DNA from: Streptomyces marianii
Lineage (GTDB): Bacteria; Actinomycetota; Actinomycetes; Streptomycetales; Streptomycetaceae
Assembly: GCF_005795905.1 (NCBI RefSeq)
Contig: NZ_VAWE01000001.1
Span: 1,984,001 to 2,048,000 of the forward strand
DNA: 64,000 nt
Direction of reading: 5' to 3'
Shown here: piece by piece, positions 1,367 to 7,676 of the stretch
Layout of the letters: each line of letters opens with the position of its first letter
Position numbering within the stretch: the first letter of the stretch is position 1
Notes under the pieces: generated by a model
What the model was told of the DNA's origin: nothing
Databases searched by the model: none
Seen by the model: the letters and a program-made list of their open reading frames with translations, nothing else
Translations under genes and position numbers: made by a program

Positions 1367-1386
1367 AATTGAAGAGTTCTTCAATT
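1367..1386. promoter_or_regulatory. ArsR-type operator, copy 1
   Basis: A perfect inverted repeat, AATTGAAGA-GT-TCTTCAATT, sits 52 bp upstream of the small-protein/ArsR pair. Very similar repeats lie at 3682-3703 and 7655-7676, each next to a paralogous ArsR gene. An AT-rich 20-bp dyad stands out strongly in DNA this GC-rich. The inference is that it is the autoregulatory binding site of the ArsR encoded at 1614-1961. Confidence 0.75.
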
Positions 1387-1437
1387 TGCTAGTTGCCGAT
1401 GCGCTCAAGATCGATGCCGCCGGCAGGGAGGGTGACT

Positions 1438-1617
1438 ATGAGCGGGTTCGTGGAGGCGGTGCTGGAGCGGGTGCGGAAGGCGCGGGCCGGGCTGGAGGCC
1501 GCCCACGAGGCTGACGATGCGTATGAAGTCGCTCTTGCCGCGGACGAGCTGGATGACGTACTGCGGCTGGCGCGCAGACACGACATCGGCACGGAAGACG
1601 AGGAGTGCCAGCAGTGA
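1438..1617 (+). CDS. Small acidic helical protein, unknown function
   Basis: A 59-residue protein starting at ATG 1438, preceded by a good ribosome-binding site (AGGGAGG at 1425-1432). It is charged and Ala/Leu rich with no Cys or membrane segment, and probably folds as two helices (VERVRKARAGLEA... and ALAADELDDVLRLARRH). It resembles the 57-residue protein at 27229-27402: both have L-x-RI/VRKA, an acidic middle, E-L-x-D-L/V and a final R-L-A-x-x-H-x-I/V. The stop codon overlaps the GTG start of the following ArsR gene (GTGA), so the two are translationally coupled. Function is unknown. A role as an ArsR partner or a DNA-damage or stress small protein would be speculation. Confidence 0.7.
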   Translation: MSGFVEAVLERVRKARAGLEAAHEADDAYEVALAADELDDVLRLARRHDIGTEDEECQQ

Positions 1618-1961
1618 ATGCGATGCCGGTTCCGCTCTATCAGGCCAAGGCCGAGTTCTTCCGGATGCTCGGTCATCCGGTACGCATCCGGGTCCTGGAG
1701 CTGTTGCAGGACGGGCCGATGCCGGTACGGGATCTCCTCGCGGCGATCGAGATCGAGCCGTCGAATCTGTCTCAGCAGCTGGCCGTGCTGCGCCGGTCGG
1801 GGATCGTGACCGCGACCCGGGAAAGTCCCACCGTGGTGTACGAGCTGGCCGGCGGGGACGTGGCGGAGCTGCTTGCCACCGCTCGGCGCATCCTGTCCGT
1901 TCTGCTCGCCGGGCAGCAGGAGCTGCTGGCCGAACTGCGTGCGGTGGAGTCTGTGCCGTGA
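1614..1961 (+). CDS. ArsR-family repressor, copy 1
   Basis: A 115-residue winged-helix protein. The GTG at 1614 is preferred because it overlaps the upstream stop (GTGA) and follows GAGGAG; an ATG at 1605 is possible. The conserved core is LYQAKAEFFRMLGHPVRIRVLELL, then the helix-turn-helix with recognition helix SNLSQQLAVLRRSGIV, then a wing and a C-terminal dimerisation helix ending LLAGQQELLAEL. It contains no cysteine, so the classical ELCVCD metal site of ArsR/SmtB is absent. Family knowledge: ArsR proteins dissociate from DNA on binding a metal or other signal. The operator at 1367-1386 lies just upstream of the unit and paralogues lie at 3195 and 7237. The signal is unknown. Confidence 0.9.
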   Translation: MNAMPVPLYQAKAEFFRMLGHPVRIRVLELLQDGPMPVRDLLAAIEIEPSNLSQQLAVLRRSGIVTATRESPTVVYELAGGDVAELLATARRILSVLLAGQQELLAELRAVESVP

Positions 1962-2044
1962 CGAGTGTCGGTCGGTTCCGGCCGTGGGGCAGCGGAAGCC
2001 CGCCGTCGGCACTGGGCGCACCCGGCCCCTGATCCAGCGGGCGG

Positions 2045-5525: not shown

Positions 5526-7240
5526 CGGGATGCCTCCTCGCGGGCGGCGGCCTGTGCCGGGACGGCGGGCAGGACCCCGGCGCCGTGCAGATGGGCGCGG
5601 GCCCCGGCGATCGCCTCAGGAGTCGTGGCGTACTCCCGGCCTTCCAGGCCCAGTAGGTCCAGCGCCCCCACCGAGTCGAGGACCTGCCGCTGGCCGGGTC
5701 GTATCCCGGAGCTCATCACGACGATGCCGCGCCGGTTCAGCTTCTCGATCGCGTCCTTGAGGACGAGCGCCCCGGTGGCGTCCATCGTCGTGATGCGGGA
5801 CATGCGCAGAATCACCACGCGTACGTCGGCGACCTCGCTCAGCTCCAGCAGGAAGCGGTGCGCGGCGGCGAAGAACAGCGGCCCGTCGATCCGGTAGGCG
5901 ACGATGTGCTCGGCCAGCAGCGCGTGCTCCTCGTCGCTGTGGTCGGCCAAGTCGAGGGACGTCTGCTCCATCCGGGCCTGCCTGGCAACCGCCCGCAGCG
6001 CGAGCGCGCCGGCCACGACCAGCCCGATGATCACCGCGTAGACGAGATCCAGCGCGAGGGTGGCGACCGCCGTCAGGACCAGGACCAGTGCGTCGGAGCG
6101 GGTGGCCTTCGCCATCGCCCGCAGCGCGCCGACCTCGACCATGCGGATCGCGGTGGCCAGCAGCACCCCCGCGAGCGCGGCCAGCGGGATCCTCGACACC
6201 AGCGGAGCGGCCACGAAGACGACCACAGCGAGGACGGCGGCGTGCGTCAGGGCGGCGAGCCGCGAGCGCGCTCCGGTACGGACGTTCACCGCGGTACGGG
6301 CGATGGCGGCGGTCGCCGGAACACCGCCGAACAGCGGCGCGGCCAGGTTCGCGACGCCCTGCCCGAACAACTCCCTGTCCGGATCGTGCTGCTGCCCGAC
6401 CGTCATCCCGTCCGCGACCGTGGCGGACAGCAGGGACTCCAGCGCGGCCAGCGCAGCCACCGCCAGCGCCGGGGCGACCAGCGAACCCAGCGCGGACAGA
6501 TCGAGGAAGCCCAGCGACGGTGCCGGCAGCCCGGACGGCAGATCACCGATAGGGGCCGCATCATCCAGGTGGAAGAGCTGGGCGACGGCCGTCGCGGCGA
6601 TGACCGCCAGGATCGAGAAGGGGACGGTCGGCCGCCACCGCGCGCCCAGCAGCATGACCGCGGCGACACCGGCCGCCAGGGCGACAGCAGTCCAGTTCGG
6701 CGTGCGCATGAACTCCTGGACGGCGTGCCAGGCCACCACCAGGACACGCTCGCCCTCCGGCTTTCCGACACCCAGGGCATTCGGCACCTGCTGGAGGAAG
6801 ATCACGCAGGCGATGCCGAAGGTGAAGCCCTCCACCACCGGGGCCGGTACGTACCGCATGTACTTCCCGGCCCGGAGCAGGGCGAGCGCGACGAGCATCA
6901 GCCCGGCCAGCAGCCCCACGGCAAGCACCCCGCCCGGACCGTGCTCGGCGACGATCGGCACCAGCACCACCGTCATCGCCCCGGTGGGCCCGGACACCTG
7001 CAGATTCGAGCCGCCGAACAGGGCCGCGAGGGCCCCCGCGACCACCGCCGTCGCCAGGCCCGCCTCTGCGCCCAGACCTGAGGAGACACCGAAGCCGAGG
7101 GCCAGCGGCAGCGCGACGATCGCGACGGTGAGACCGGCGAGCAGATCGCGCCGGGGATTGCGCTTCATCGTGGCGAAGTCCGCTCGCGCAGGCAGCAGCG
7201 AGCGCACGGGGCTCCACATCCGATCCAGCAGCGCATTCAC
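5522..7240 (-). CDS. SulP-family anion transporter with STAS domain
   Basis: About 572 residues from GTG 7240, which overlaps the ArsR stop (GTGA). The N-terminal region RRDLLAGLTVAIVALPLALG is the typical first SulP segment. Several further membrane segments follow, including GGSNLQVSGPTGAMTVVLVP, the signature substrate-site region. The cytoplasmic C-terminus is a STAS domain (YRIDGPLFFAAAHRFLLELS, VRVVILRMSRITTMDATGA). Family members carry sulfate, bicarbonate or other anions; no carbonic anhydrase or sulfate gene is adjacent to decide. It heads the part of the operon after ArsR copy 3, implying repression by that protein. Confidence 0.92.
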   Translation of the reverse strand: MNALLDRMWSPVRSLLPARADFATMKRNPRRDLLAGLTVAIVALPLALGFGVSSGLGAEAGLATAVVAGALAALFGGSNLQVSGPTGAMTVVLVPIVAEHGPGGVLAVGLLAGLMLVALALLRAGKYMRYVPAPVVEGFTFGIACVIFLQQVPNALGVGKPEGERVLVVAWHAVQEFMRTPNWTAVALAAGVAAVMLLGARWRPTVPFSILAVIAATAVAQLFHLDDAAPIGDLPSGLPAPSLGFLDLSALGSLVAPALAVAALAALESLLSATVADGMTVGQQHDPDRELFGQGVANLAAPLFGGVPATAAIARTAVNVRTGARSRLAALTHAAVLAVVVFVAAPLVSRIPLAALAGVLLATAIRMVEVGALRAMAKATRSDALVLVLTAVATLALDLVYAVIIGLVVAGALALRAVARQARMEQTSLDLADHSDEEHALLAEHIVAYRIDGPLFFAAAHRFLLELSEVADVRVVILRMSRITTMDATGALVLKDAIEKLNRRGIVVMSSGIRPGQRQVLDSVGALDLLGLEGREYATTPEAIAGARAHLHGAGVLPAVPAQAAAREEASR

Positions 7241-7578
7241 TTCGCCGCGACCTCGGCTTCCCGCAACTCCACCGGCAGCACGTTCCGACCCGAGAGCATC
7301 TCGGTCAGGATCCGCCGCGCGGCCCGCAGCAGATCCGCGGCATCCCCGCCCGCCGACCCGTGGAACACCGTCGGTGCCTCCCGCGCGGAAGCCGCGATCC
7401 CCGACCGGCGCAGCACCGCCGGCTGCTGCGACAGCACCGACGGTTCGACCTCGATCTCCGCGGGCAGGTCCCGCAACGGCATCGGCCCGTCCTGCAGCAG
7501 CTCCAGCACCCTGATCCGCACCGGATGGCCGAGCGTCCGGAAGAACTCGGCCTTGGCCTGACACGGCGGAACCGACAC
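7237..7578 (-). CDS. ArsR-family repressor, copy 3, probably impaired
   Basis: A 113-residue protein from GTG 7578 with GAGGGG just upstream. The core matches the other two copies (AKAEFFRTLGHPVRIRVLELL, LQDGPMPLRDL). However, the recognition helix reads SVLSQQPAVLRRSGIAASAR, with proline replacing leucine inside the DNA-reading helix, and the wing VVYELAGG of copy 1 is VFHGSAGG here. These changes look damaging. One Cys occurs near the N-terminus (PPCQAK). The gene is coupled by GTGA to SulP and lies behind its own operator at 7655-7676, which also carries one mismatch. If it is inactive, one of the other ArsR copies may control this operon. Confidence 0.8.
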   Translation of the reverse strand: MSVPPCQAKAEFFRTLGHPVRIRVLELLQDGPMPLRDLPAEIEVEPSVLSQQPAVLRRSGIAASAREAPTVFHGSAGGDAADLLRAARRILTEMLSGRNVLPVELREAEVAAK

Positions 7579-7654
7579 GACCCCTCACGCTTCCTCGTCG
7601 ACGCATGAGCTGCGCCCGCGGCTACCTGCGGGCACAGCCTCTATAGCATGTAAT

Positions 7655-7676
7655 GAATTGCGAAATTTTGCAATTC
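7655..7676. promoter_or_regulatory. ArsR-type operator, copy 3
   Basis: Inverted repeat with half-sites GAATTGCGAA and TTTGCAATTC around AT, with one mismatch between arms. It lies 77 bp upstream of the ArsR copy 3/SulP operon and is the same motif as the repeats at 1367 and 3682. Confidence 0.72.

Follow-up and report, generated by a model that had tools for sequence, protein, structure and literature searches.

Whether a set of closely similar repressor genes forms one regulon or several independent circuits is the question raised by a 64,000-nucleotide stretch of Streptomyces marianii DNA (contig NZ_VAWE01000001.1, positions 1,984,001 to 2,048,000; hereafter the window, whose own numbering is used below), part of a 9.01-Mb genome. 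Three genes here encode ArsR-type proteins (ArsR1, ArsR2 and ArsR3), and an initial sequence-only reading had placed each beside an inverted repeat (1367-1386, 3682-3703 and 7655-7676) and proposed that the three are cross-controlled as one scattered regulon. The genes and repeats are confirmed, and all three proteins score above the Pfam cut-off of 22 bits for HTH_5 (45.7, 31.5 and 26.4 bits), as expected of the ArsR/SmtB superfamily. Here we argue, with a probability of roughly 0.68, that these are cysteine-free autorepressors sharing a promoter-overlapping operator, and that their main output is an operon for SulP, FDOR, HATPase and STAS proteins that is partly controlled in trans. Sequence support for the operators is strong and cross-control is likely; on these comparisons the arrangement is a conserved shared-operator system in which a known class of protein occurs in a new setting. 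The quantities computed directly are the sites, their uniqueness, their conservation, their linkage to genes, the decay of ArsR3 and the retention of operators without an intact cis repressor.

The operator pattern that fits all three window sites is AATTG-N10-CAATT. The pattern originally suggested for a genome scan, GAATTG-N6-CAATTC, has the wrong spacing, and site 1 also lacks its flanking G/C. The two halves of site 1 (1367-1386, AATTGAAGAGTTCTTCAATT, ahead of the arsR1 operon) and of site 2 (3682-3703, between the divergent arsR2 and orf77) mismatch solely at the central base pair, and in site 3 (7655-7676, ahead of arsR3-sulP) a single pair is mismatched, the seventh counted from the end of the 20-mer. 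When one mismatch to the pattern is allowed, the window contains three matches against 0.08 expected, a number reached in none of 100 shuffles. The whole genome contains three perfect sites, the three of the window, each ahead of an arsR gene of one family, and 11 sites with up to one mismatch against three for the reversed pattern. One of the eight one-mismatch sites precedes a fourth family arsR, as the proposed scan was meant to find; the other seven, slightly above control, are unlinked to a family ArsR and were taken as chance, the four stretches inspected being without any reference gene. The core pattern TTGMNRANNTYNKCAA occurs at six places, the four at arsR genes plus a further two (1392097 and 6377110), and its reversed form at four; the two extra matches were likewise taken as chance, a reference-protein search of both stretches having given no match. 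Four sites in this genome are therefore convincing candidates, and a wide, scattered regulon is not supported.

The fourth paralogue, ArsR4 (C1:5758080-5758406), was found by a protein search of the genome and is 80% identical to ArsR1, compared with 57% for ArsR2 and 67% for ArsR3. Its one-mismatch operator lies 92 bases before the ATG, and it is flanked by a roadblock-like gene and recO (both named by eye). The description of three paralogues thus holds for the window, but the genome has four, and the one at 7237 looks degenerate. Among relatives the family occurs in four settings, of which S, B and P are present in the window and R elsewhere in the genome. In S the order is site, small open reading frame (ORF), arsR1, HATPase and DUF6126, with parts missing in some loci. 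In B the opposite end carries an arsR2-type gene, in some loci diverging from an orf77. In P the site is followed by arsR and sulP and then, commonly though not all in each locus, by FDOR, HATPase, STAS and PhnA-like genes. In R a roadblock-like gene, the site and arsR4 follow one another; the roadblock-like gene is the fixed partner here, and recO was rejected as one because it follows arsR4 in only 2 of 18 R loci. In two loci (L122 and L143) the operator and arsR are followed by HATPase and STAS genes, and in L122 also by FDOR, with sulP unmatched, as in the operon minus its transporter.

To gauge conservation we used 61 Streptomyces genomes (the host and 60 sampled), 40 stretches from that set chosen partly for holding a site, and 79 named loci chosen by ArsR similarity alone from the best 80 of at least 590 relatives, which are hence close kin. 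A family ArsR is present in 35 of the 61 genomes (E 1e-20), and 26 of the 61 hold 33 perfect sites between them. Of these sites, 25 have a family ArsR no more than 700 bases downstream, and three others (G007, G014 and G025) precede a sulP whose arsR is a remnant or missing. That leaves five (G007, G020, G025, G027 and G030), where the reversed pattern yields four. We then examined the 350 bases before 165 full-length ArsRs, accepting a site if all ten outer bases matched, if one missed and at least two of the five inner pairs matched, or if two missed and at least four matched. By this rule an operator precedes 52/53 P, 34/37 S, 12/18 R, 19/48 B and 9/9 other ArsRs, against 6/3300 first-order Markov shuffles and 6/2460 tiles lying over 400 bases away from any arsR, sulP or small ORF. 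The named loci alone give 36/37, 30/32, 3/5, 15/26 and 7/7, respectively, and the remaining loci 16/16, 4/5, 9/13, 4/22 and 2/2. The operator is linked to the family across the Streptomycetaceae and in three Frankiaceae loci. A phylum-wide sample gave a family match in 29 of 246 genomes (E 1e-25); arsR adjoins sulP in 8 of 24 of its more distant loci, and an open palindrome search of distant loci found similar repeats in L181, L189 and L192, most of the others showing no clear one. Relatives of the family also occur in seven plasmid records (six Streptomyces and one Nonomuraea), including NZ_CP109396.1 and NZ_CP108841.1.

A rival account is that each ArsR controls its own operon only, the operators being alike through paralogy and without cross-talk. 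This account, which we consider unlikely overall, gains from the way in which the operators diverge. They fall into two variants, TTGAA with A at base 6 and TTGC with C at base 6, and the variant tracks the paralogue type: TTGAA makes up 59/68 half-sites of type S and 24/24 of type R, and TTGC 91/104 of type P and 36/38 of type B. Within the window the operator at 1367 is of the TTGAA variant and the other two are TTGC. The two variants would allow partial insulation between paralogues. Moreover, in a tree of the ArsRs, obtained by a quick search that leaves 97 of 168 inner branches open, R is one clade (99 by the SH-like approximate likelihood ratio test, SH-aLRT), B is nearly one (two label changes), and P and S are clustered without resolving as clades. 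The TTGAA variant is also found at some sulP-linked arsR genes, for example in L118, L154 and L164 outside the named Streptomyces and in L145 and L153 within them. On the other hand, the recognition-helix core LSQQLAVLRR is near-invariant across the family, which fits poorly with separate circuits. Residue 54 of this helix was considered as what decides between A and C at base 6; the raw correlation is strong, in that N goes with AA in 33 cases and CC in 4, A, G or V with CC in 32 and AA in 2, and S is mixed, but phylogeny leaves only one or two independent supported pairs, and the residue remains a lead. B-type operators, where a site is present, have conserved flanking arms such as ACGACCT and AGGTCGT, forming a longer palindrome around the ArsR site.

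Evidence against separate circuits comes from the fate of the operator where the neighbouring repressor has gone. A site lies ahead of all 67 sulP genes with sufficient sequence before them (900 upstream bases searched where a cis arsR was matched, 400 where none was), comprising 57/57 with an intact adjacent arsR and 10/10 without one (L047, L048, L049, L076, L077, L097, L100, L103, L105 and L121); in the named loci alone the counts are 41/41 and 5/5. Two S operons, L055 and L062, likewise keep a one-mismatch site although arsR is gone, and in G002 and G021, where the only ArsR found is of type B, sulP keeps a one-mismatch site. In 21 of the 61 Streptomyces genomes an orthologue of sulP (identity 74% or more) is present, and all 21 are among the 35 with a family ArsR. 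Because operators persist ahead of sulP, and in L055 and L062, even when the neighbouring arsR is absent, cut short or diverged, cross-control is probable.

The window itself probably offers a similar case. ArsR3 (7237..7578, minus strand, type P) breaks 9 of 46 near-invariant residues of the family (L11P, Y12C, V41L, L45P, L59P, V68A, Y79H, L81S and L108P), compared with none in ArsR1, ArsR2 and ArsR4 and 0-3 in the other 162 sequences. The changes include prolines in the third helix and in the recognition helix, as positioned on an AlphaFold monomer with a mean predicted local distance difference test score (pLDDT) of 79. The end branch of ArsR3 is 0.44 long against a median of 0.047, and its median non-synonymous divergence (pN) is 0.131 against 45 P orthologues, compared with 0.068 among those, with equal synonymous divergence (pS; 0.400 and 0.404). 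ArsR3 is thus decaying and probably no longer works as a repressor, and a decaying ArsR3 is difficult to accommodate if each repressor serves its own operon alone. An intact sulP operator coupled with a repressor of its own that is probably not working is the strongest case that this locus makes for control in trans. Of the cross-controlled regulon first proposed, the conserved operator family, kept even where the adjacent arsR is lost, is upheld, and the idea of three equal working repressors is not.

Several observations weigh against this interpretation. Three of the ten arsR-less sulP loci (L047, L048 and L049) were chosen because of their site. The arsR match in L105, 264 bases long and 48% identical, is diverged but perhaps working. 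In L097 the best site is that of the divergent operon next door, and the site closer to sulP has two mismatches. Five loci thus remain as the cleanest cases free of selection bias, L076, L077, L100, L103 and L121, among which L076 and L077 have an identical site sequence and are possibly close kin. The co-occurrence of sulP and ArsR has a hypergeometric probability of 1.9e-7 that ignores the kinship of the genomes, and its count excludes G047, a genome with no family ArsR at the cut-off that has a 161-residue sulP fragment and no site. An own site is unrecognisable by the rule used in 29/48 B, 6/18 R and 3/37 S ArsRs. Since the operator variant follows paralogue type, cross-binding may be partial. 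Finally, retention of an operator after loss of arsR could stem from recent loss, or from a promoter role of the same bases.

The last point touches on a further explanation, that the palindromes are not ArsR operators at all and instead serve another regulator or act as a promoter element. The bases directly after the operator are indeed conserved at a fixed distance, as in a promoter (tTAgATGC in P loci, ttAGTTGC in S loci). However, the palindromes accompany the ArsR family through several genera, and none (0/4) stands ahead of four sulP paralogues, 65-67% identical, that have no arsR within 3 kb (L195-L198), and the TTGAA-N6-TTCAA form known for ArsR/SmtB operators is like that of the operators here; we consider this explanation very improbable. 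In their 3-kb stretches these four paralogues represent a second sulP type, next to carbonic anhydrase genes. The conserved bases after the operator suggest that it probably spans the -35 element and the spacer of the promoter.

A third alternative, and one to which we attach very little weight, is that these are ordinary metal-sensing ArsR/SmtB repressors. ArsR1 and ArsR2 are above the NCBIfam HTH_metalloreg cut-off and ArsR3 is below it. Against this, as the sequence-only reading had noticed in the window, metal-binding cysteines are lacking: any cysteine at all is found in only 4 of 163 aligned family members, no cysteine is conserved that could form an alpha3, alpha3N or alpha5 site, and His24 is the sole invariant histidine. 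With 159 of 163 members free of cysteine and a single invariant histidine, thiolate-based metal or persulfide sensing is unlikely; across the same sequences there is no cysteine pair in helices 2 and 5 as in persulfide sensors, and the NCBIfam BigR scores (43.9, 62.1 and 34.7 bits) are far from the cut-off of 155. The neighbouring genes, for SulP, FDOR, HATPase and STAS-like proteins, do not suggest metal sensing either. The nearest solved relative is Rv0081 of Mycobacterium tuberculosis (profile E 2.1e-39, the next family being at 2.2e-17), which is near-full-length colinear and also the best fold match, at 51% identity, and which has no defined metal site according to PMC6177252. By sequence and fold the family is of the Rv0081 type, hence of a known protein class.

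We can now outline how the preferred shared-operator system might work. ArsR repressors are dimers, and winged-helix ArsRs of the Rv0081 type, without a metal site, would act here as repressors. To judge from its position and from the family, each would bind the 20-bp palindrome AATTG[A/C]...[T/G]CAATT on its own promoter and repress its own operon; the operator probably overlaps the -35 element and spacer, and the bound dimer would block RNA polymerase. A signal other than thiolate-bound metal would release the repressors. This would activate arsR2/orf77, the small-ORF operon and, as the principal target, the sulP-FDOR-HATPase-STAS operon, and would also raise repressor output, giving negative feedback. 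Because the recognition helix and the operator are nearly the same throughout, the paralogues could act on each other's sites. With ArsR3 decaying and the sulP operator intact, sulP is most likely held in trans by ArsR2, which is of the same TTGC class, or by ArsR1 or ArsR4.

The TTGAA operator at 1367..1386 is followed on the plus strand by a 59-residue ORF (1438..1617), which has no Pfam or NCBIfam match and has homologues in the same place in many relatives, and by arsR1 (1605..1961, core from ATG 1623), which is of type S, Cys-free and apparently intact. Then come a HATPase-like gene (1973..2424), split here into two tblastn pieces in different frames, compared with a single open frame matching HATPase_c_2 in L047, and a gene for a small DUF6126 protein (2454..2627; PF19621, 1.2e-22). 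On the minus strand, arsR2 of type B (3195..3662, core from GTG 3545) diverges across the TTGC operator at 3682..3703 from orf77 (3717..3950, plus), a layout with site also seen in L088, L091, L104, L120, L131, L132, L140 and L150. The small Orf77 protein contains CxxC pairs, spotted by eye, and has positional homologues in relatives and no Pfam match. The product of 3949..4297 (plus) resembles by eye L046:3677-4075, itself a weak, sub-cut-off STAS_2 match, and gave no match in a Pfam search of its own; we call it STAS-like.

The sulP operon runs on the minus strand from the TTGC operator at 7655..7676, followed by the promoter-like bases conserved in P loci, through arsR3 to sulP (5522..7240), a Pyridox_ox_2 (FDOR-like) gene (5115..5525) and a HATPase gene (4696..5118), RsbW-like by fold name, whose HATPase_c match (5.9e-5) is under the cut-off and whose place is conserved. 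SulP, which we take as the main output of the locus, has both Sulfate_transp and STAS domains, and its best PDB chain is 6ki1_A (7e-55). It could not be accepted as a certain bicarbonate carrier, with 272.7 bits for NCBIfam BicA against a cut-off of 880, and it scores 344.7 bits for DauA against 614. Just past the operator, a remnant at 7690-7900 (plus) looks by eye like the end of a polyketide synthase acyl-carrier domain (MGFDSLTAVELRN...), and a reading frame at 8840-9330 (plus) has, again by eye, motifs like those of C5 DNA methyltransferases (SPPCQ).

The Rv0081 branch of ArsR proteins, largely uncharacterised according to PMC10509353, gains from this work a precise candidate operator and, in soil bacteria amenable to culture and editing, a conserved target operon. 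The natural losses of the adjacent repressor make control in trans directly testable, and the recurrent SulP neighbour narrows the search for a ligand. A doubtful extension is that what this metal-free network senses is a signal of anionic or one-carbon nature (bicarbonate, formate, sulfate or a linked redox state), and that the network couples SulP transport to a flavin or deazaflavin protein and an anti-sigma-like HATPase/STAS switch. With the operator shared, the paralogues would be interchangeable and the transporter's local repressor dispensable. If true, the ligand here would point to that of the whole Rv0081 class.

Among other known systems, the SmtB, CzrA and NmtR metal sensors are alike in fold and in the operator form TTGAA-N6-TTCAA, and differ in having metal ligands, of which there are none here, in their target genes and in a much weaker sequence match. 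The persulfide sensors BigR, which ranks second by profile match to solved structures, and SqrR carry a cysteine pair (PMC10509353) that this family lacks. With the dormancy regulons of OsdR (PMC5069765) and DevR the system shares FDOR-type and nitroreductase genes in some neighbourhoods; control of this kind was rejected, since OsdR-like boxes with up to one mismatch are not enriched (5/172 arsR upstream regions against 162/3521 tiles), four of the five being at S-type genes and two from one locus. Usp genes have 43 matches in the genome and a single weak one in the window, at about 18.9-19.2 kb, without a cluster there. That nothing like this arrangement had been described was too strong a claim for the protein class; for a sulP-linked, shared-operator ArsR regulon we recognised no description among the matches listed in the literature on Streptomyces and actinomycetes, of which few subscription articles were reached.

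The closest system is that of Rv0081 itself (PDB 6jmi), which belongs to cluster 3 of the ArsR sequence network of PMC10509353, a cluster described there as mostly uncharacterised with no obvious metal sensing. Rv0081 represses itself via an inverted repeat and dimerises in vitro (PMC6177252); such a repeat is present and conserved at the promoters of the family here, where its role in autorepression is predicted. Gel-shifted Rv0081 sites such as GAGAATTC (PMC4757040) resemble the centre of the TTGAA operators (TTGAAGAATTCTTCAA), which we offer as a lead only. A formate hydrogenlyase operon was not found conserved beside B-type arsR genes in the printed parts of 16 loci inspected by eye; a HyfB-like fragment stands beside the B-type arsR of L046, also by eye. 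In M. tuberculosis, Rv0081 adjoins by numbering the FDOR gene Rv0080, of whose expression it is among the strongest drivers in overexpression data (PMC13284343), just as an FDOR-like gene lies within the arsR operon here. The Rv0081-Rv0088 locus, however, encodes a predicted formate hydrogenlyase, whereas the system described here is built on a sulP-based operon, has as many as four paralogues and has an operator defined to 20 bp.

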